A stretch of DNA of 64,000 nucleotides from Siphonodentalium dalli. Its lineage: Eukaryota > Mollusca > Scaphopoda > Gadilida > Siphonodentaliidae. The stretch spans positions 266,297,551 to 266,361,550 of the forward strand of contig CP136061.1 of assembly GCA_032622095.1 (NCBI GenBank), given 5' to 3'. The notes under the pieces are model-generated. The model had not been told where the DNA came from. It saw only the letters and a list, made by a program, of their open reading frames with translations, and searched no databases. The number at the start of each line of letters is the position of its first letter. The stretch's first letter is position 1. The translations under genes were made by a program, and so were the position numbers. Below are positions 32,640 to 45,610 of the stretch, one piece after another.

Positions 32640-35600
32640 TTCTTCTGATATTGATATTCCGGGCTATGAATGTTTAAATCTGAGTCGCAAGCAGGGTAGA
32701 ATTAAAAAGGCGGAATAGCCTTTTATTTCCGGTCGAAGTATAAACCTTTTCTGAAGAATCACAATTTTATCAATGAGGTAGCTCTCTCAGTCGAGTTTAG
32801 CGGAGAAATAATTAATTTATCTTGCAATGTTATATTTGTATCGGAATATGTTCCGCCTAGTAACTCAATCTTCTGGAAAGCGAAAAATGGAGACGAAGAT
32901 ATCTTTGGTAACATCGAACATGCTTTATCAAAATTTACAAACAGTGAACTCGTCATTCTTGGTGGAGATTTAAATGCACGCACTTCAGACTTGCCGGATC
33001 ATGTTATATCTGACACGGACCAACATATGCCGTTGCCCGTCGATTATGTAATGGACACGTGTGAGTCGCGCACGAGTATGGATAAGCAGACGAATTCATT
33101 TGGCAGACGTTTATTAGCAACGTGCCAGGGTGCTGGTCTCCGTATAGCTAATGGTAGGACTACCGGTGATCGTTTGGGCCATTTTACAAGCTACCAGTAC
33201 AACGGTGCCAGTGTGGTTGATTACATAATTATCAGTGATTGTTTTCTAAAGTCGGTTGATTATTTTTGCGTCAAATTACCCACGGAATTTTCTGACCATT
33301 GTCAATTGGTTCTACATCTAAAACACCCAAGCAAACGGTGTTCAAAGCTATCTACGAAATATCAATATACACAGCCACAACTCCGCTTAAAATGGACTGA
33401 ATTAAGTCGGCAGAAAGTATACGACATAACGCAAAAACAAGTCAATACACGAGCGACAGATAGACTTTAACAGTTATCAGTACTCGCGAGATCAACAAGG
33501 AACAACACTTGCTACAGTGGATTTCATGCAATTAATACATGACATAAACGTTCATGCATGCGCTCGAAAATCACTCAAACGAAAAACTACTCCCAGAAAA
33601 CGACCATGGTTTGACGGTAGATGTAAAGATTTGAAACGCGATCTAGCAAAAATAATTATCGATATGAGAAATAATCCCTTTGACGGGAAACTCCGGATAA
33701 AATTACACGTAAATAGAAAGGCATACAAACGCGAGTTGAAGAAGAAAAAGCGCGATTTTTATGAATGCTTATATGATAGCTTAGATACCCTAGAAATAGA
33801 TAATCCCAAGAAATATTGGGAAATAATATCACAATTGCGAAAAAATAAAGTCACCTAAAATGACTTAGACGCTGATAGGTCAGTTGAATTTTTCAGGTCA
33901 CTTTTTTGTACAGGTTCACCTAATATTTACATTGACGAAAACATGAACTCCTCGGGCATCTCGCCTGCTGTGAAAATGACTGATGAAGTTATCACGGTAG
34001 AGGAAATTCTGTCCGCCACTAGAGAATTGAAATCGAATAAATCAGTGGGACCAGACCAGGTATCGAATGAGCTTTTGAAGGTGGTTGTTCCTCTAATGAG
34101 TGATGGCTTTGCCAAAATATTTAACATAATTCTTCACACAGGGAACTACCCAACTGCATGGAGCGAGTCAATTCTCAGCTTAATCCACAAAAAAGGTGAC
34201 AAGGGTGATTCGAATAACTACCGCGCTATAGCATTAAGCTCCACAATTGGGAAACTGTTTAATAAAATTATAAACCGTAGATTAACAGATTTTCTTGTAC
34301 AAAATAAAATTATTAGTGAAAATCAATTCGGATTTTCTAAAGGAAAGAGTACAATTGATAGCGCGTTTGTGCTGCATGCCATAGTTCAACGATATAAGTC
34401 ACTGAAGCGACCGCTGTATGCTGCCTTTATAGACTTCCGAAAGGCATTTGATACCGTGAATAGGCAACTGCTCTTCGATAAAATGCAACACATCGGAGTA
34501 GAGGGCCAATCACTGCGTATAATCCGTTCACTATATTCTTCAAGTTGTTACACAACTAAGACAAATAGAGGACTTGGACCTGCTTGCTTATCGACCATTG
34601 GGGTCAGGCAAGGATAAATATTATCACCGAATTTATTCAAAATATTTATCGATGACATTAGGAATATATTTGACGAATCGTGTGATCCAGTGACGATCGG
34701 GGATAGTCAGTGCAATCATATTCTTTTCGCTGACAACCTCGTTCTATTGTCTGATAGTTCCACGGGACTCCAAAACTGTCTAAACAAACTTAAACTCTAC
34801 ACTGATGCGAATGAACTCAAAGTTAACGAGGAAAAAACTAAATGCATGATTTTTCGGGCGAGACAATCGACAATAATTCCATCCTTTCATATCTCTGAGA
34901 TCAAACTCGAAAATGTCAGGGAATATACATACCTTGGTATAACCTTTTCTAGTAATGGCAAGTTCACAAAAGCTATCACAAATTTAAGCGCTAAAGGGCT
35001 CAAAGCGATGTACTCACTATTCAATGCGTGTAACCATACATCACCTCTCCCATTGTTAACTTCACTCAAACTGTTCCATAAACTGATCAAACCAATAATT
35101 ATGTATGGCAGTGAACTGTGGGGTGTCGAGATAACATCTAAAAATCACGATCTCCTAGCCTGTGAATCAGTTCATATTAAATTTTGCAAACGTTTATTAG
35201 GTTCTAGAAAATATGCATCAAATAATGCTGTCCGTGCAGAACTAGGTAGCTATCCTCTGTATATAGATGCAGCTTGCAGAATGTCGAATTATGCTATCAG
35301 TGTCACCTCGCGTTCGGACTGCGAACTTCAACGAAATGCGGTTAAAGAACAACGGAAGGTATTATCTTCAAAATCAATTTTCAAATCAGTCGAATCTCTA
35401 GGGTTAACATTACCAGAGACTGATCACGCCACCGACATGATAACGAAAAATTTCCGAAAATCTTTACAAAATAGCTATAACGAGTACTTCCAAGCTAGCC
35501 TGAGTGACGACTGCTCAAAATCAGGCAGCAACAAACTCAGAACATATCGGCTTTACAAGAAAGAGTATAGGCTTGAGCCCTATCTTCTGAACGCGAAATC

Positions 35601-36085
35601 ATTGGAAGACAGAATAGCTTTCACCAGATTCAGAATCAGTAACCATGTACTTGCTATAGAAAAGGGGCGTCATTTACAGCCCCCAGTAAAATTAGAAAAT
35701 AGAAAGTGTGTGTTTTGCTGCGATGATGTCGTCGAAGATGAAATACATTTCCTTATGGAATGCACTGCATATTCACAACTACGAAGAGAGCTTCTCGAAT
35801 CAATGGTTAACCATAATCCGAATTTTCATCGCATTAACGCCAACGATCAATTTACTACTATATTGACAAATGACTGTCCCACTCTAACACGAATAATATG
35901 TAAACTGATCCGTCGCTTCTTCGATACTCGCGCTGAGCAAATAACAGTTAGGAAACCATAAATATGATACATGATCCTGAGACTCCTTGTATATTTTATT
36001 ATCACATGTTTTGTATACTATTATCCATTGTATTAGCAAACTGTCCTCGTGTGGATGTTTTTTGCCAATAAATCATTATCTATGA
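32640..36085 (+). pseudogene. Decayed non-LTR retrotransposon (LINE): APE endonuclease, reverse transcriptase and C-terminal zinc finger
   Basis: The endonuclease part (about 32640-33470) shows LGGDLNAR, SVVDYIII and the catalytic SDH of FSDHC. A linker at 33517-33858 leads to reverse transcriptase from 33943, with FIDFRKAFD and GVRQG followed by a stop (34615-34617). The frame resumes in LSPNLF. The usual FADD catalytic box is FADN at about 34724. A C-terminal finger CVFCCDD...HFLMEC lies near 35707-35764. Frame breaks also occur around 32700-32760, 33470-33517 and 33858. Order and motifs place it in the broad APE-LINE group (CR1/jockey/RTE-X-like); the clade is uncertain. It is 5'-truncated and ends near an AATAAA at 36067. 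It cannot be active. Confidence 0.9.
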
Positions 36086-36107
36086 TATATAATTTGTCCG
36101 TGTCTGT

Positions 36108-36167
36108 GTTGGAATTGGAATGTATTATGACCCAACCAACTCAGGTTTCATCAATAATTTATAACAA
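36108..36167. repeat. Satellite fragment, left of the first Helitron-like insertion
   Basis: GGAATTGGAATGTATTATGA through ATTTATAACAA matches the satellite at about 44080-44131. It continues at 37283 after the insertion. Confidence 0.85.
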
Positions 36168-36189
36168 TCTCATATATATTTTGAAGACC

Positions 36190-36223
<34 letters not shown>

Positions 36224-37282
36224 ATTAATACAAATCTATGATTCTCGACCGATCGGGACGAAACTTGGTACGTGTGTGTAGTTTAACCAGGCGGTGGTCG
36301 TTGTCGTATTGGCGAGCCCGTGCGACGCCCGTGCAGCGCATGCGCTGACGAGATCTCGGAAATGGGTGGAGCTATCGACTTGAAATTTGGTATGTGAATG
36401 TATCTTGCCCCGAATACGAATTTTATCGGGTCGCCGAGCCCGTGCGACGCAAGCTTCGCGCATGCGCAGACCAGATCTCGGAAACGGGTAAAGCTATCGA
36501 CTTGAAATTTGCTATGTGAATGTATCTTGCCCCGGATACGAATTTATCGGGTCGCCGAGCCCGTGCGACGCCAGCTTCGCGCATGCGCAGACGAGATCTC
36601 GGAAACGGGTGGAGCTATCGACTTGAAATTTGGTATGTGAATGTATCTTGCCCCGGATACGAAGTTTATCGGGTCGCCGAGCCCGTGCGACGCCAGCTTC
36701 GCGCATGCGCAGACGAGATCTCGGAAACGGGTGGAGCTATCGACTTGAAATTTGGTATGTGAATGTATCTTGTCCCGGATACGAATTTTATCGGGTCGCC
36801 GAGCTCGTGCGACGCCAGCTTCGCGCATGCGCAGACCAGATCTCGGAAACGGGTGGAGCTATCGACTTGAAATTTGGTATGTGAATGTATCTTGCCCCGG
36901 ATACGAATTTTATCGGATCGCCGAGCCCGGGCGACGCCAGCTTCGCGCATGCGCAGACCAGATCTCGGAAACGGGTGGAGCTATCGACTTGAAATTTGCT
37001 ATGTGAATGTATCTTGCCCCGGATACGAATTTTATCGGGTCTCCGAGCCCGTGCGATGCCAGCTTCGCTCATGCGCAGACGAGATCTCGGAAACGGGTGG
37101 AGCTATCGACTTGAAATTTGGTATGTGAATGTATCTTGCCCCGGATACGAATTTTATCGGATCGCCGAGCCCGTGCGACGCCAGCTTTGCGCATGCGCAG
37201 ACCAGATCTCGGAAACGGGTGGAGCTATCGACTTGAAATTTGGTTTTTGAATAGCCCGGACAACGTCGGGCTCATCGGCTAG
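36168..37282 (+). mobile_element. Non-autonomous Helitron-like element A (pearl-like) with 122-bp tandem core
   Basis: The 5' end is TCTCATATATATTTTGAA, followed by a (CTGT)n tract. The 3' end is a short hairpin (AGCCCGGACAACGTCGGGCT) six bases before CTAG. The insertion lies between A and T with no duplication, as shown by the intact satellite copy at 44131/44132. The core holds about eight units of 122 bp containing GGGTCGCCGAGCCCGTGCGA and GAGATCTCGGAAACGGGTGG. The TC start, hairpin plus CTRR end and A/T target define Helitrons. The microsatellite plus tandem core resembles bivalve pearl elements. Open frames in both strands are repeat translations. Confidence 0.85.
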
Positions 37283-37340
37283 TAGTATATATTTGGCACT
37301 TCCTGAGTTCTATCAAATCATTCGTGGACAATGAATGGTA
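37283..37340. repeat. Satellite fragment between insertions
   Basis: Continues the satellite unit broken at 36167: TAGTATATATTTGG and GAGTTCTATCAAATCATT match 44132-44175. The array resumes at about 43296. Confidence 0.8.
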
Positions 37341-37562
37341 AAATATTCATCAAATATACTGATGATAATAAGAGATACAAAGTCACTCCAAGCTATTGAA
37401 AAGGCAAGATGTGCCGAAACCGGTATAGCTTTATGTACATACATGTAATAAATATTCAACAATGAACGGATACCTTTCTTAATTTTCAAACTATTCCATT
37501 CTTCACGTCAGCAGTCACCTACGTCAGAGGAAAATTTCTTCATTATTTTATAAATATATATA
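37341..37562 (+). mobile_element. Short retroelement-end remnant with a degenerate hammerhead-like motif
   Basis: Sequence foreign to the satellite. At 37391-37430 AGCTA, a TTGAAAA core, stem II GGCA/TGCC, GAAA, a minimal ACCGGT stem III, A and TAGCT follow the hammerhead type I layout. The core differs from CUGANGA at two positions (C3 to U, G8 to A). Possibly the end of another Penelope-like copy. Confidence 0.4.
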
Positions 37563-37957
37563 TCTCATATATATTTTGAAGACCTCTGTCTGTTTGTTTG
37601 TTTGTTTGTTTGTCTGTATGTTTGTCTGTCATTGATACAAATCTACGATTCTCGACCGATCGGGACGAAACTTGGTACATGTGTGTAGTTTGACCAGGCG
37701 GTCGACGTTGTCGTATTGGCGAGCCCGTGCGGCGCCCGCTTCGCGCATGCGCAGACGAGATCTCGGAAACGGGTGGAGCTATCGACTTGAAATTTGGTAT
37801 GTGAATGTATCTTGCCCCGGATACGAATTTTATCGGGTCGCCGAGCCCGTGCGACGCCAGCTTCGCGCATGCGCAGACCAGATCTCGGAAACGGTGGAAC
37901 TATCGACTTGAAATTTGGTTTTTGAATAGCCCGGACAACGCCGGGCTCGTCGGCTAA
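37563..37957 (+). mobile_element. Helitron-like element B (same family, two core units)
   Basis: Starts TCTCATATATATTTTGAA after an A, has a (TTTG/CTGT)n tract, two 122-bp core units, the terminal hairpin and CTAA. It abuts element C directly. Confidence 0.75.
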
Positions 37958-38566
37958 TCTCATATATATTTTGAAAACCTCTGTCTGTTTGTCTGTTTCT
38001 CTGTTTGTTTGTCATTTATACAAATCTACGATTCTCGACCGATCGGGACGAAACTTGGTACGTGTGTGTAGTTTGACCAGGCGGTCGTCGTTGTCGTATT
38101 GGCGAGCCCGTGCGACGCCCGTGCAGCGTATGTGAATGTGGTATGTGAATGTATCTTGCCCCGGATACGAATTTTATCGGATCGCCGAGCCCGTGCGACG
38201 CCAGCTTCGCGCATGCGCAGACGAGATCTCGGAAACGGGTGGCGCTATCGACTTGAAATTTGCTATGTGAATGTATCTTGCCCCGGATACGAATTTTATC
38301 GGGTCGCCGAGCCCGTGCGACGCCAGCTTCGCGCATGCGCAGACCATATCTCGGAAACGGGTGGAGCTATCGACTTGAAATTTGGTTTTTGAATAGCCCG
38401 GACAACGTCGGGCTCATCGAAACGGGTGGAGCTATCGATTTGAAATTTGGTTTTTGAATAGCCGGACGCTTCGCGCATGCTCAGACCAGATATCGGAAAC
38501 GGGTGGAGCTATCGACTTGAAATTTGGTTTTTGAATAGCCCGGACAACGTCGGGGTCATCGGCTAG
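37958..38566 (+). mobile_element. Helitron-like element C (same family, rearranged core)
   Basis: Starts TCTCATATATATTTTGAA right after element B and ends with the hairpin and CTAG at 38563-38566. Internally the terminal block occurs three times in part, showing rearrangement. Element C and the 3' part of B recur almost identically at 42176-43040. Confidence 0.75.
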
Positions 38567-38652
38567 TATATATATATTTTGAAAGTGTGGAGAGCGCGGG
38601 CACAGGTCGGAATCCGATTTCTTATGTAATTATTTCTATGGAACTAGCTAAA

Positions 38653-38745
38653 TTTTGTTAGGTTGTGTCGGAAATTGACATAAATTTTGTTAGGTTGTGT
38701 CAGAAATTGACATAAATTTTGTTAGGTTGTGTCGGAAATTGACAT
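38653..38745 (-). repeat. 33-bp tandem repeat, three units, in the PLE 3' region
   Basis: Units share TTTTGTTAGGTTGTGTC and GAAATTGACAT. They lie between the ORF2 stop and the Helitron-derived flank. Confidence 0.85.
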
Positions 38746-38893
38746 TGAATAATTTGTTGAGCATTGTTGCCATTCAAAGATGGAACTAGCTAAATTTGTT
38801 TGGGTTGTGAAAATGACATAAAATATTGTGTTGAGCACAAACTAAGGATAATGGTGTTGACATAAGCTAAAAGCTAATTGAACTGCGTGTTAA

Positions 38894-41266
38894 TCAAGGT
38901 CTGAGTCTAGATCGAACGAGCATATCTCTCAAACTGGGATTTTTCTTGTAGGCAATAATAACCCGTTTGTCGAGAGGCTCGGTCAATTTAGTGTTTAATA
39001 ATGCAAAGTTTTTTCTGAAAATGTTTGCGATTTCAACATTTCTACGATTGTAGATCAGAGGAAAGCACAAGAAATTTCGAGAAACACCTTTGTAGTCAAT
39101 GTTAAGTCCGAACGGAAGATATGTTTTAAGTACGCCCATCCAATGATTTTCGCGTTCTAGGCGTATTGAATCGGTTTGGTCTTCGTCGGCTAGAATTGGT
39201 GTCTGTTCTATTGGCTGAAAGCTGAAATGGGATTTAATGTCATGATTAGATGAGTTGAAATGATCGGAAATTTGCATGTCGAGTTTTTTGCGAACACTGG
39301 AAAGATGATTAGACATTCTAACTTTGAGAGAGGTTTTTGTTTGTCCAACATATTGTATACGGCATCTTTTGCATGTGATTAAGTAAATTACATTTTTAGA
39401 ATCACAATTAAGTTCGCTATGCATTTGATACGATATGCGTGTTTGTTCGCTGGTGAAAGTGTTACTAGTATTGATATATCCTATTGTATTGATGTAACAT
39501 CGTTTTTTGTGACAAAATGAGGCTGAACCATTACCCAACACCGGCCGGTTGTGCCGTATCCTTGTTGGTTCAGTCGATGTTGGGTCATGGCGTGACGAGT
39601 TCAATTCTCTGAGAGTTTCGGACTTTACTTGGCGCAGTAATCTACTAGAGTAGCCGCGCGGTCGTAAAGCCTGGAAAAGCACTGAACAAGCTTGATTTAG
39701 GTCGCTTCTGTTCGTGCAGTTCCGGTGATATCGAATGATTTGAGATTTAATCAATCCATTGAAAAGTTTTGGCGGATGGAAAGATTTACGATGAAGTAGC
39801 TGGTGAGAATCCGTTGGTTTCGTAAAAAGTTTTGTATCTAAAATGTTGCATGATGTAAATTGTGGGCCCTTAAATATTGTTAAATCAAGGAAATCAATGC
39901 TGGTTTGCGATATTGATTCTTTGAGTTTGATTGATTCGTCATGACTGTTCAAGATGTCCAAGAACACCCTAAACTCATCCAGACCATGAGTCCAAATGAT
40001 AAATATGTCGTCCAAGAATCTATAATAGGCTAATGGTTGTTTATCAGATTTGGCCAGGGCGCCTTTCTCCCACTCTGCAACAAAAATTGAGGCAAAATTA
40101 GGACTAAACTTCTTGCCCATACTGCAGCCGGAGACCTGTAAATAATATCGTCCATTAAATTCAAAGTCATTCCCTTTAAGAGAAAGTTCTAATAATTGAA
40201 GTAGTTCATCTCCAGGTCTATGAGGATCATGGTGGAAATCAAATGCATTCTTAATTGACTTTAATCCGGCATCGATTCCAATATTTGTATACATAGATTC
40301 CACGTCGAGACTAATTAGGTAAGCAGAAGATGGAACTTCAATTTTCGACAATTTAATGAGGAAGTCCTCCGTGTCTTTTAGATAGCTCGGATGGCGGGTA
40401 GCAATTGGTTTCAAATAGAAATCAATAAACTCCGAAATGTGGTACGACTCCGAAGCCACGTCGCTGATGATGGGGCGACCGGGTGGTGTGTATGGATTAG
40501 TCCAACAGCTCAAAGGTTTGTGTATTTTAGGTAGCAAATAAAATGTCCTATTATTGGATTCAGGTTTTGCAATTAGATACTGAACATGTTTTTTCTTTAA
40601 AACGTCCTGGTCCAGCAAGCTTTTGAGAATGAGATTGAATTTTAAAACATTGGATTTCCAAATTGGCTCATCCAATGGTTTGTAATATTTAGTGTTGCTT
40701 AATTGGCGCGTCGCTTCTAGAATGTAATTTTCTTTAGACATGATGACGAGCGAGCTGCCTTTGTCACAAGGTTTGATTACAATGTTTTTATTGCTGCGAA
40801 GAGTTTTTAGTGCAGTTCTTTCAACTTTAGTGAGGTTATCCTCGTTGTGAAATTTTGGTAAATTTGTGATGTCGGTTTTGACTAAGCCAGCGACCTCGGG
40901 AATGGAGTGGTCAATCTGGCGATCAGAGGGGGTCCATATCGAAGGTTCTTTAAATTGATCTTTTAAACCTGTCGAATTGCGAAAGAAATCAGCCATAGCT
41001 GTTACTTCCCTAAATTGCATGCTTGCTGGACCGCCGTTCATTTCCATGGCATACATAGAGTCTGGTAAAACCAATGTTCCATCCTCCGTCTCAACAACAT
41101 GTGGTGTTTCTTTGAGATCGGGTGGGGTAGGAACAAAGGTTAGACCATACCTAAGTATTGATTTCTCACCAGCGCTCAGGGAAAGGTCGGGTACAAGATT
41201 GACTATCTCGGTGCCGAGACCGACTCTTTCCGCATGGCTGATGCCCTTCTGAGGAATTAGTTTAAA
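38894..41266 (-). CDS. PLE ORF2: Penelope-type reverse transcriptase with GIY-YIG endonuclease
   Basis: Encodes the retrotransposition enzyme of a Penelope-like element, which primes reverse transcription at a nick. The frame is open from 41272 to a stop at 38894. The first ATG is only at 41056, yet the upstream 64 codons encode the conserved PLE N-terminus (LSLSAGEKSILRYGLTFVPT), so translation probably enters by -1 frameshift from ORF1 (about 790 residues after the slip). Then follow DKGSSLVI, YLLPKIHK, SLDVESMYTNI, CSMGKKFSPNFAS and the catalytic FLDD at about 40008-40020. The C-terminal GIY-YIG module shows NVIYLITC (about 39376-39398) and QYVGQTKTSLKVR (about 39320-39356), preceded by a Cys/His-rich linker. 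No lesions are seen, so it may be functional. Confidence 0.93.
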   Translation of the reverse strand, partial: FKLIPQKGISHAERVGLGTEIVNLVPDLSLSAGEKSILRYGLTFVPTPPDLKETPHVVETEDGTLVLPDSMYAMEMNGGPASMQFREVTAMADFFRNSTGLKDQFKEPSIWTPSDRQIDHSIPEVAGLVKTDITNLPKFHNEDNLTKVERTALKTLRSNKNIVIKPCDKGSSLVIMSKENYILEATRQLSNTKYYKPLDEPIWKSNVLKFNLILKSLLDQDVLKKKHVQYLIAKPESNNRTFYLLPKIHKPLSCWTNPYTPPGRPIISDVASESYHISEFIDFYLKPIATRHPSYLKDTEDFLIKLSKIEVPSSAYLISLDVESMYTNIGIDAGLKSIKNAFDFHHDPHRPGDELLQLLELSLKGNDFEFNGRYYLQVSGCSMGKKFSPNFASIFVAEWEKGALAKSDKQPLAYYRFLDDIFIIWTHGLDEFRVFLDILNSHDESIKLKESISQTSIDFLDLTIFKGPQFTSCNILDTKLFTKPTDSHQLLHRKSFHPPKLFNGLIKSQIIRYHRNCTNRSDLNQACSVLFQALRPRGYSSRLLRQVKSETLRELNSSRHDPTSTEPTRIRHNRPVLGNGSASFCHKKRCYINTIGYINTSNTFTSEQTRISYQMHSELNCDSKNVIYLITCKRCRIQYVGQTKTSLKVRMSNHLSSVRKKLDMQISDHFNSSNHDIKSHFSFQPIEQTPILADEDQTDSIRLERENHWMGVLKTYLPFGLNIDYKGVSRNFLCFPLIYNRRNVEIANIFRKNFALLNTKLTEPLDKRVIIAYKKNPSLRDMLVRSRLRP
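41206..41219 (-). other. Short palindrome downstream of the frameshift site
   Basis: TCTCGGTGCCGAGA can form a five-pair hairpin about 40 nt after the slippery heptamer. This is farther than the usual 5-9 nt spacer, so its role as a stimulator is doubtful. Confidence 0.2.
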
Positions 41267-42176
41267 TGACCTTTAAAGATGTTGGTCCAGCCTTGGTAGA
41301 TTTTCGCCGCCGTCTGTGATGTCCAGTGGATGTTGTCATTCTCCACGTGAAAGTCGCGGGGGGGTATTGCCTGTATGACCTTGAGGTTCTGTGTCTGACG
41401 AGCTTGGCTGTTAATGGCACGCAGAACATCCTGGTCCCTAGAATCTAAACTGAATGAGATATTTATTTCCTGAAAATGAAGTGTCGCATTAGGAAAAACT
41501 TTTCGGAAATTACTAACCATGTTAGTTACCCTGCTTTTAGCTGTGGTGCCTGCTGTTTTGCCTTTGTCGTTGTCTGTCTTCCAGTCCTCTCGGTTGTTGA
41601 TGCCAATGTTGATGATGACGTGTCGAGGTGTCTTTTCTGGCTTCGATTTCAGTTTGTGGGCCATGTTGCAGAAATGACCTAAATTGCCACCTGGGTAAGA
41701 AGCAATACAAACATTTTTGGGAGGATCGACATCGATCCGGGACACATTAGAAGAGCCTAAAATAACAACAGGGTTTTTTATCTGTTTAGGGAAGGACCAA
41801 TCCTTCTTAGGGCCAGGTTGACGAAATTTATAAAATTTGGATACCTTAGGTGATGTTGATAATACCTCGGCATACGATGGTGATGATGTTGAAATCGCTG
41901 GCGATGTCATCGAAGCAATGGAACCAACAGGCGAAGGAGGGCTGGAAGAGATGTGCTTTGGTGGTGTTGTTTTCTTGGCTGGTGAATTTTGAAGTGATGT
42001 ATTTGGTGGAGTGGATATGCGTGACGTCCGTGGTTTTGGTGCAGGTCTCTGTGGCTGTGGTGTGGCTTTGACGCGTTTTGGTGTGGATCTCACAGACGAC
42101 GACGTTGTCTGATCCCTGGCTGGACTATCCTGAAATTGAAGCTGGCGAGCGATTAGTGGGGGATGGGAGGGTGACC
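41257..42176 (-). CDS. PLE ORF1: proline/serine-rich region plus SGNH/GDSL-hydrolase-like domain (5' incomplete)
   Basis: The reading frame extends upstream into Helitron repeats (to 42489), but native ORF1 sequence starts at the junction near 42176. First comes a low-complexity P/S/T-rich, basic segment (about 110 residues), then a domain matching SGNH hydrolases. The nucleophile block is GSSN (about 41749-41758), the glycine block YPGGN, the asparagine block NIGINN (41593-41610) and the D-x-x-H block DNIHW (41323-41337). SGNH esterase-like domains are known in ORF1 of CR1-type LINEs. The role is unproven; nucleic-acid or lipid association has been suggested there. The stop at 41257 directly follows the slippery heptamer. 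The true N-terminus is missing. Confidence 0.75.
41260..41266 (-). promoter_or_regulatory. Candidate -1 ribosomal frameshift site (slippery heptamer)
   Basis: On the minus strand ORF1 ends CAT TTA AAC TAA. T-TTA-AAC matches the X-XXY-YYZ rule, with the zero-frame stop immediately after it. The -1 frame is closed by TAA at 41275-41273 and open from 41272, so the two frames overlap by only 16 nt and the heptamer lies inside that overlap. Slippage leads straight into the conserved PLE N-terminus. Confidence 0.75.
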
Positions 42177-43039
42177 GACGTTGTCGTATTGGCGAGCCCG
42201 TGCGGCGCCCGCTTCGCGCATGCGCAGACGAGATCTCGGAAACGGGTGGAGCTATCGACTTGAAATTTGGTATGTGAATGTATCTTGCCCCGGATACGAA
42301 TTTTATCGGGTCGCCGAGCCCGTGCGACGCCAGCTTCGCGCATGCGCAGACCAGATCTCGGAAACGGGTGGAGCTATCGACTTGAAATTTGGTTTTTGAA
42401 TAGCCCGGACAACGCCGGGCTCGTCGGCTAATCTCATATATATTTTGAAAACCTCTGTCTGTTTGTCTGTTTCTCTGTTTGTTTGTCATTTATACAAATC
42501 TACGATTCTCGACCGATCGGGACGAAACTTGGTACGTGTGTGTAGTTTGACCAGGCGGTCGTCGTTGTCGTATTGGCGAGCCCGTGCGACGCCCGTGCAG
42601 CGTATGTGAATGTGGTATGTGAATGTATCTTGCCCCGGATACGAATTTTATCGGATCGCCGAGCCCGTGCGACGCCAGCTTCGCGCATGCGCAGACGAGA
42701 TCTCGGAAACGGGTGGCGCTATCGACTTGAAATTTGCTATGTGAATGTATCTTGCCCCGGATACGAATTTTATCGGGTCGCCGAGCCCGTGCGACGCCAG
42801 CTTCGCGCATGCGCAGACCAGATCTCGGAAACGGGTGGAGCTATCGACTTGAAATTTGGTTTTTGAATAGCCCGGACAACGTCGGGCTCATCGAAACGGG
42901 TGGAGCTATCGATTTGAAATTTGGTTTTTGAATAGCCGGACGCTTCGCGCATGCTCAGACCAGATATCGGAAACGGGTGGAGCTATCGACTTGAAATTTG
43001 GTTTTTGAATAGCCCGGACAACGTCGGGGTCATCGGCTA

Positions 43040-43040
<1 letters not shown>
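42176..43040 (+). mobile_element. Duplicate of Helitron-like elements B (3' part) and C
   Basis: Matches 37703-38566 along its whole length, with one single-base indel and very few substitutions. It begins inside element B at CGACGTTGTCG and ends at CTAG (43037-43040). Together with the left copy it brackets the PLE. Confidence 0.9.

Positions 43041-43102
<62 letters not shown>
43041..43102. repeat. (TA)n microsatellite
   Basis: Alternating TA run with a single C interruption near 43081, directly after the Helitron end. Confidence 0.95.
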
Positions 43103-43105
<3 letters not shown>

Positions 43106-43176
43106 TCATAAAAGTAAGTAAGCCATGGTTCTAGAAAATATTTTCTAGAACCATGGCTTAATTACTTTTATGAATA
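43103..43176. repeat. Near-perfect 36-bp-arm palindrome
   Basis: TATTCATAAAAGTAAGTAAG, then CCATGGTTCTAGAAAA, is followed with almost no loop by its complement, with one mismatch. It could extrude as a cruciform. Confidence 0.92.
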
Positions 43177-43295
43177 TATGAAACTACACATGGAATACAA
43201 ACTACTTAAATATATATATGTATGTATGTGTATGCATGTGTATGTATGTGTATATATACATATATATTTATGTGTATGTGATTGTATATATATAA
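43177..43295. repeat. TATG/TATA-rich simple sequence
   Basis: TATGTATGTGTATGCATGTG and similar low-complexity sequence between the palindrome and the resumed satellite. Confidence 0.8.
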
Positions 43296-45420
43296 ACGAA
43301 TGGATAAAATTAAACTCACTGTTGATCCCACCTGTTGAATGACTAAATTTTAAATAATATATTTATTGTTGACACAGCTAAGTCCCACAGAGGCATATTT
43401 CATAATGGATATAACTGTAATTGGAATGCAGTGTTGACCGTACCCATTACATGAATAAATTACAAATATATATTTGGTTGACAAAACTGAGTCCTACATC
43501 ATAATGGATATAATTGAAATTCATTCTTATCCCACCCTTAAATGAATAGATTATAAATGTGCAATTATTGTTGTTACAACTATGTCCTACTCAGGTATGA
43601 TGTCACAGTGGATGTAATTGGAATGTATCTGTTGGCCCCACCCTTAAATGAATACACTAAACATCACTGTTGAACCCCGCCCCGCATGACTAAATTATAA
43701 ATAATATATGTACTGCTCATACAGCTAAGTCCTACGTGATATATCAGAATGGATGAAATTGAATTTTGAAATGATATATTTATTGCTGACACAACCAATG
43801 CCTACCCAGTCATTATATGTCATTGGTGTAACTGGAATGCATTTTGACCTGACCCATTAGATGAATACATTGGTAATAGATAATTATTGTTGACACAACT
43901 AAGTCCTACCCAGTCATAATATATCATAATGGATGGAATTGACATTCTTGTTGAGTCCCACTCTTGAATGAATGGAATTGAAATATATTGTTGACCCAAC
44001 CGTAAATGAATAATTTTTGTCATTTATTATTGACAGAGCTAAGTCCTACCCAATCATTATAGATCATGATGGGTGAAATTAGAATCTATTGTGACCCAGC
44101 CCACTCAAGTTTCATGAATAATTTATAACAATAGTATATATTTGACATTCTTGAGTTCTATCAAGTCATTATACATAATTATGTGAATGGATGGAATTAA
44201 ATTCATTGTTGATCCCACCTGTTGTGTGACTAAATTATAAATAATATATTTATTATTGACAAAGCTTAAGTCCTACAGAGGCATACGATATAATGGACGC
44301 AATTGTTATTGGAATGTATTGTCGACCCCACCTCTGAAATGAATGAATTAAAAAGATGCACTTTGGTTGACAAAAATAAGTCATACCAAGTCATGATACA
44401 TCATAATGGATAGAATTGAAATGCATTCTTACCTCATCCTTAAATGAATAAATTATAGATGTACAAATTATTGTTGTTACAACTTTGTCCTACCAAGTTA
44501 TGATGTCACAGTAGATGTAATGGGAATGCATTTGATGGTGCCCACCCTTAAATTAATACATTATAAATCAGTGTTGACCCCACCACTGCATGACTAAACT
44601 ATAAATAATTTATTTACTGCTCATACAGCTAAGTCCTAAGTGATATATCAGAATGCATGAAATTAAATTAATTACTGAATTGCACAATTATATTAGAAAC
44701 AACATATTTATTGCTAACACAGCCGATGCCTGCCCAGTCATTATATGTCATGGATGTAACTGAATATATTGTTGACCCACCCCTTAAAGGAATCAATTAA
44801 AATAAATATTTTGGTTGAAAAAACCTGTAATTATACAAGAAATGGATATAATTGAAATGCATTCTTACCACACCCTTAAATGAATAAATTATAGATGTAC
44901 ATTTATTGTTGTTACAACTATGGCCTATCCAGTTATGATGTCACATTGTTGTAATTAGAATGCATTTGTTGTCCCACATTTAAATGAATACATTGAAAAT
45001 CATTGTTGGCCCCACTCATGCATGATTAAATTATAAATAATATATTCACTTCTCATATAGCTAAGTCAAAAGTGATATATCAGAATGGATGAAATTAAAT
45101 TAATTGCTGACTTGCACAATTAAATTAGAAATGATATATGTATTGCTGACACAACCAATGCCTACCCATTAATTATATGTCATGGATGTAACTGGAATGC
45201 ATTTTTGACCTGACCCCTTAAATGAATAAATTGAAAATATATAATTATTGCTGACACAACTAAGTCCTACCTAGTATTGATATATCATAATGGATGGAAT
45301 TGAAATGCTTGTTGCCCCCACTCTTAAATAGGTGGAATTGAAATACAATGTTGAACCCAACTCTTAAATTAATCGAATGATGCTAAGTCCTACAGTGGCA
45401 TATGACATAATGGATGTAAT
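43296..45420. repeat. Satellite/minisatellite with unit about 105 bp and higher-order structure
   Basis: Degenerate units contain AATGAATAAATTATAAAT, ATTGTTGACACAACTAAGTC and CATAATGGATGGAATTGAA. Blocks of several units recur as a larger repeat (for example 43300-43700 resembles 44175-44650). It includes the empty insertion site of Helitron-like element A at 44131/44132. Confidence 0.88.
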
Positions 45421-45610
45421 GTAATCAAAACCAAGAGCAATAACTTAAATTCCTTGGCATAATCATTGACGAAAACCATACTTTCAAATACCATATATCA
45501 ATGTTAACCAGAAAAATATCACACGCAATATACTGTCTAGGTAAAGCCAAACGATTTCTCCCAAAAAGCGCACTAAAACTCAAAATTTTATACAAACCCG
45601 ATAGTGTTAT
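45421..45610 (+). pseudogene. LINE reverse transcriptase fragment
   Basis: About 60 codons read as LKFLGIIIDENHTFKYHI, then AKRFLPKSALKLKILY, the segment just after the RT catalytic core in APE-type LINEs. Truncated on both sides and attached to the end of the satellite. Confidence 0.7.

Follow-up and report, generated by a model that had tools for sequence, protein, structure and literature searches.

How can a reverse transcriptase be made from a reading frame that lacks a start codon ahead of its conserved N-terminus? This question is raised by a Penelope-like element (PLE) in a 64,000-nt stretch of the scaphopod Siphonodentalium dalli genome (GenBank assembly GCA_032622095.1, contig CP136061.1, positions 266,297,551 to 266,361,550; hereafter the window). 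PLEs share ancestry with telomerase, and those that carry an endonuclease (EN+ PLEs) are usually described as having a single open reading frame (ORF). The element in the window has two ORFs, both on the minus strand, as are all of its features given below. The reading that we favour, with a probability of about 0.83, is that −1 programmed frameshifting makes a fusion of the ORF1 protein, reverse transcriptase (RT) and GIY-YIG endonuclease (EN) in a two-ORF EN+ PLE.

The layout and the frames can be read directly from the DNA. ORF1 (41257–42489, 410 aa) ends in GGT CAT TTA AAC TAA, which sets the slippery heptamer T TTA AAC (41266–41260) directly 5′ of the TAA stop (41259–41257). The reading frame of ORF2 (38894–41272) is offset from that of ORF1 by −1. 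The upstream stop of this frame is 6 nt before the heptamer, and 792 codons are open from 41272 to a stop that ends at 38894, so that the two ORFs overlap by 16 nt (41257–41272). The conserved ORF2 N-terminus (IVNL...LSAGEK...GLTFVPTP; 41123–41206) precedes every ATG of the frame, the first of which (41054–41056) comes 70 codons after the heptamer. A first-pass annotation, made from the letters of the window, had already described a heptamer abutting the stop, a −1 frame open to 38894 and a conserved PLE motif within 70 ATG-less codons, and each of these descriptions was confirmed.

ORF2 encodes a PLE N-terminal domain, an RT and a C-terminal GIY-YIG endonuclease; in a domain search, RVT_1 matched residues 308–444 (39941–40351; E 7.1e-7, at the cut-off) and GIY-YIG matched residues 627–714 (39131–39394; E 1.9e-8). 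ORF1 ends in a putative SGNH/GDSL esterase-like domain (GSSN, YPG, GINN, DNIH; 41278–41757). Under −1 frameshifting, ribosomes would translate ORF1 with its esterase-like domain and mostly end at the TAA. On T TTA AAC, a minority would step back by one base and continue reading into ORF2, to give an ORF1-RT-GIY-YIG fusion in the manner of retroviral Gag-Pol. A second, distantly related clade of such elements in the genome has the same arrangement, and there the slip would take place on T TTT TTA. That slippage occurs, at some frequency, and that the fusion works as a functional enzyme is what we infer from this arrangement.

Two heptamers conserved in place and phase

Relatives of the element were found through GIY-YIG and ORF2 N-terminus searches of the genome (2.2 Gb, 9 contigs), and a selection, here given locus numbers (L), was taken among the matches listed. 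W denotes the family of the window element, and clade A comprises the families W, L017 and L005. Left out before counting were L011, whose N-terminus is missing, and L085–L090. Among these other GIY-YIG loci, L085–L087, L090 and also L091 are broken W-family copies, and the similarity of L088 and L089 is confined to the GIY-YIG region. An apparent 2020-aa open frame in L084 was rejected as an assembly gap of N.

Of the 41 clade-A loci examined, 37 have TTTAAACTAA exactly 60 nt upstream of the first codon of I[VI]N[LI], with 27 distinct junction sequences, and TTTAAAC followed by TAA at this −60 position is common to all three families. The remaining loci are L024 (N gap at the site), L071 (site changed), L077 (TTTAAAA) and L081, which has TTTAAACTAA, but not at −60. 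ORF2 identity is 68% between W and L017, 49% between W and L005 and 50% between L017 and L005; the corresponding identities at 4-fold degenerate sites are 80/183, 26/128 and 37/126 (range 0.20–0.44), so synonymous sites in the two comparisons with L005 are near saturation. The heptamer lies in an invariant run of 10 nt; in the ∼190 codons aligned near the ORF1 ends, the longest such run measures 5 nt. The −1 frame is closed 6–69 nt upstream of the heptamer in the 37 loci. Between W and L017, the first 60 nt from the heptamer, read in the ORF2 frame, hold 10 identical, 8 synonymous and 2 nonsynonymous codons, and the 30 nt before it hold 1, 0 and 9, respectively; the ORF2 frame looks conserved from the heptamer onward and not before.

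Clade B, whose ORF2 is only ∼26% identical to that of W, also has ORF2 in the −1 frame, and its ORF1 continues for tens of nt beyond the site. An in-phase T TTT TTA, followed by a −1 frame open into ORF2, is present in 32 of 43 distinct loci; L044, which overlaps L031 and has the same site, was counted once with it, and identical junctions occur at different places in L033/L061 and L013/L062. Eight subfamily representatives were chosen from the heptamer-carrying loci and aligned with the heptamer as anchor. Within 45 nt on either side, TTTTTTAG is the sole invariant run of more than one base, accompanied by two isolated invariant columns, and the first 53 ORF2 codons of the same representatives contain no invariant run longer than 2 nt. 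Six of the eight, with pairwise ORF2 identities of 48–67% over about 130 codons, have no invariant run longer than 4 nt in 133 codons. The heptamer is missing from L030 (T7), L032, L034, L035, L037, L042, L046, L050, L051, L063 and L064. Most of these are read as decayed copies, given the stops, indels and base changes near the site, but L030 and L037 keep a long zero-frame ORF; the heptamer region of L037 is gone, apparently by deletion. As a separate observation, L010, L012, L013, L015, L047, L049, L052 and L055 carry a second in-phase heptamer-like sequence, CCCAAAA, directly before I[VIF]N[LV].

Three features expected of programmed frameshifting are present at these junctions: a heptamer of the form X XXY YYZ that lies within the overlap and in phase with the zero frame, a downstream ORF in the −1 frame without a conserved start of its own, and a conservation of the heptamer that exceeds coding need. 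Because the heptamers are conserved in place and phase across families, −1 programmed frameshifting is well supported in silico. The first-pass annotation had named two outcomes that would speak against it, namely ORFs fused in one frame and random sequence in place of the heptamer. Neither was found among the intact families sampled here. The three clade-A families and all eight inspected clade-B subfamilies have their ORF2 in −1, and the heptamers recur at the frequencies given above (TTTAAAC 37/41, TTTTTTA 32/43). The proposed ORF1-RT-GIY-YIG fusion by frameshifting thereby gains support from heptamer conservation in this genome. The sites themselves are familiar. The passages available to us, as for all papers cited here, place U_UUA_AAC with the −1 sites on which mammalian ribosomes shift most and give U_UUU_UUA as the site of human immunodeficiency virus (HIV) (PMC5009743). 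The first-pass annotation describes UUUAAAC as one of the most efficient −1 slippery sequences. Viral contigs contained no stretch matching the patterns.

Objections and alternatives

Several observations weigh against frameshifting. All comparisons come from one genome. A heptamer in a single copy is weak evidence, at best mildly unlikely by chance and not significant in most families: when ORF1 codons were shuffled, the P value for a canonical in-phase heptamer in the overlap was 0.016 for L001 of the W family, 0.02 for L005, 0.12 for L017 and 0.17–0.35 for four clade-B copies. What carries the case is that two canonical heptamers recur, in exact phase, over families that have diverged. The 10-nt invariant run of clade A is notable and not unique, because the ORF2 alignment holds invariant runs of 13, 9 and 9 nt. 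The frame-switch signal is clear solely between W and L017; for W and L005 it is weak, with 6/3/11 identical/synonymous/nonsynonymous ORF2 codons over the first 60 nt, and over the final 30 nt ahead of the heptamer the ORF1 frame itself gives no sign of purifying selection (2/0/8, W–L017). TTTTTTAG resembles a 3′ splice site. Finally, a simple home-made search of 12 sequences turned up no downstream pseudoknot or exceptionally stable stem that the families share, including the region 5–10 nt downstream where the first-pass annotation had proposed to predict a pseudoknot. In these sequences, minimum free energy z-scores ranged from −2.0 (L047) to +1.5, and four had no pseudoknot above the thresholds used; L043 outscored each of its 40 shuffled versions and L047 also did well, though with a different structure. 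Speculatively, the stop next to the heptamer, pairing over a long range or a factor acting in trans may aid slippage.

Alternative splicing has to be taken seriously because TTTTTTAG and, in two families, CTAATTCCTCAG resemble acceptors. Unspliced RNA would then yield ORF1, and a leader exon with an ATG, joined to an acceptor at the junction, would yield ORF2. On this view, the 3′ splice site would account for the conserved nucleotides: TTTTTTAG/G in clade B and, with CTAAT as branch point, TTCCTCAG/A in W and L017 (the slash marks the cut). TTTTTTAG indeed looks like a pyrimidine tract with an AG, and all eight clade-B representatives have a G following the heptamer, an invariance that frameshifting does not need; in W and L017, CTAATTCCTCAG lies downstream of the heptamer's start. 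However, pyrimidine content at −20 to −5 is 0.50–0.69 in 12 sequences, which is near random, and another AG lies 10–17 nt upstream in eight of nine clade-B sequences and at 18 nt in the ninth. The L005 family has no matching site, as its AG, a few nt after CTAA, differs in position. In W and L017, the stretch from the heptamer to the AG already shows conservation in the ORF2 frame. Nor does splicing account for a run of exactly six T, uninterrupted by C, in eight subfamilies, for the precise codon phase, or for frames that always stand at −1. We consider it unlikely.

ORF2 might instead begin independently, by reinitiation after the ORF1 stop, at a non-AUG codon or by internal initiation. Some long interspersed nuclear elements (LINEs) couple translation of ORF2 to termination of ORF1. 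The L005 family has an in-frame ATG ∼38 nt past the ORF1 stop, with IVNL 4 codons further on, and reinitiation at an AUG is conceivable there only. W, L016, L017 and L020 have no such ATG; their first Met comes 63–93 codons into the open frame, past IVNL. In clade B, the first ORF2 Met is upstream of the conserved I[VIF]NL in just 1 of 20 loci (L025, in a microsatellite-bearing stretch). It falls 20 codons past this motif, inside the conserved GMKFTP, in the L026 and L027 subfamilies, and in the other loci it is mostly later or absent within ∼100 codons. A conserved upstream ATG in ORF2, which the first-pass annotation had also listed as a point against frameshifting, is thus not found before the conserved N-terminus, the L005 family excepted. 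Two different canonical heptamers in exact phase would go unexplained as well, and an independent start strikes us as very improbable.

It is scarcely credible that the conserved block is a cis-acting RNA element, such as the site of RT binding or priming near the ORF start of a lizard (anole) PLE, rather than a recoding signal. In that element the template RNA needs the first 172 nt of the ORF (PMC11167929), and 8 of 10 clade-A sequences contain GGC-N4-GCC, starting ∼14 nt past the heptamer. The two clades, however, have an in-phase X XXY YYZ of different letters as their invariant core, which a binding site would not predict.

Returning to −1 frameshifting, we think it somewhat probable that this is the standard route to RT for the whole two-ORF EN+ branch of PLEs, with UUUAAAC or UUUUUUA fixed by clade. 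If so, a telomerase-related class of retroelements would gain a Gag-Pol-like ratio of ORF1 to ORF1-RT-EN, and the stimulator might be trans-acting or non-structural. A conserved frameshift would show that PLEs, too, can set the ratio of a first protein to an enzyme fusion, and would explain RT ORFs that seemingly have no start codon; both the annotation and the expression of such elements would change. UUUAAAC and UUUUUUA sites without an evident pseudoknot would also be useful for asking what stimulates slippage.

The element and its copies

The window element has the marks of an EN+ PLE, with an RT followed by a C-terminal GIY-YIG in a single ORF, pseudo-long terminal repeats (pLTRs) and tandem copies. 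The 5′ pLTR (42367–43051) and the 3′ pLTR (37893–38577), whose edges are approximate, are direct repeats of ∼685 bp with 1 mismatch and an offset of 4474. A ∼122-bp tandem repeat composes the pLTR and the adjoining satellite array at 36178–38472 and 42058–42946. Next to a (TA)n run, just upstream of the element, positions 43100–43179 form an inverted repeat of two 40-nt arms, 98% complementary and without a spacer. Hammerhead motifs are common, though not universal, in the pLTRs of EN+ PLEs; no hammerhead ribozyme family was found at E ≤ 1 in window positions 34000–45500, nor in L005, L010, L012 and L017, where the pLTR is possibly incomplete.

Forty scored genome matches are ∼100% identical over 401 bp, many of them in 4.6-kb tandem, and neighbouring copies are often 4604–4613 bp apart. 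The ORF2 frame is exactly 792 codons long in roughly 100 of the 134 W-like matches listed (hand count). Judged by its many near-identical copies, the family appears to have been active recently. Some matches have an in-frame TAA inside the GIY-YIG domain, for example G000 C3:97926217 and C7:5045354, which are W-family copies with an ORF2 frame of 675 codons.

The family has better specimens than the window copy, whose ORF1 is 5′-truncated relative to sister copies: the ATG lies inside satellite/pLTR DNA, as does the start region at 42165–42489, and roughly the first 100 aa correspond to such DNA. Its match to the L017-family ORF1 begins at residue 157 only, whereas L001–L003 and L023, where ORF1 is longer, match that same ORF1 from residue 9 (48% identity). 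The frame is open for 516 codons in L001, with a Met at residue 34, and sister-copy ORF1s are ∼480 aa long.

S247, G267, N298 and H388 are invariant in five aligned clade-A ORF1 sequences from three families, and we assign them as putative SGNH catalytic residues. Foldseek matched the ORF1 C-terminus to SGNH/GDSL esterases (best E 2.8e-5), starting from a low-confidence single-sequence model (predicted local distance difference test, pLDDT, 47.7; predicted template modelling score, pTM, 0.45), and Pfam GDSL_2 matched three of five clade-A members below the cut-off (best E 0.0057). Five clade-B ORF1s gave no credible Pfam match, the L010 and L012 ORF1s have no significant similarity to clade-A ORF1, and PDB sequence searches returned no related chain and nothing useful.

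Comparison with known systems

No report of frameshifting in a PLE was found in the literature searched, the coverage of which did not extend to the key survey of Craig et al. 2021, and the part of a recoding review that was covered (PMC5009743) makes no mention of Penelope. Close parallels are the −1 frameshifts of HIV (U UUU UUA) and infectious bronchitis virus (U UUA AAC), which use the same heptamers with a downstream ORF in the −1 frame. The retroviral and coronaviral systems differ in belonging to unrelated elements, and no common downstream structure was found here. LINEs of the CR1/L2/RTEX group, such as ZfL2-1, resemble clade A in an ORF1 with an SGNH esterase domain (PMC3905857). They differ in having a LINE-type RT and endonuclease. 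To our knowledge, frameshifting is not known in the expression of their ORF2.

Within PLEs, EN+ members are described as single-ORF and EN-deficient ones as two-ORF (PMC6431247, PMC6515669). EN-deficient PLEs (Athena, Coprina) and Terminons have at least two ORFs, and Terminons can carry GDSL esterases (PMC6431247), but both are without an RT-linked GIY-YIG endonuclease. An SGNH esterase ORF1 has been noted in PLEs (PMC3905857), and esterases in the Neptune-like PLEs of fish and mollusks (PMC5408684). These elements combine an SGNH-type domain with a PLE as clade A does and are probably its closest kin, as compared by description only; the passages concerned give no mode of translation for ORF2 (PMC5408684, PMC3905857). 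The first-pass annotation noted that well-studied PLEs are described with a single ORF; EN+ PLEs are so described (PMC6431247), and PLEs with an esterase ORF1 are already in print (PMC3905857, PMC5408684). Canonical EN+ PLEs, Penelope/Poseidon and PAc of Anolis, share with the element described here an RT with a C-terminal GIY-YIG, pLTRs and tandem arrays (PMC11167929, PMC6431247). They are described with a single ORF, whereas here the enzyme ORF has no start of its own and lies in the −1 frame of ORF1.

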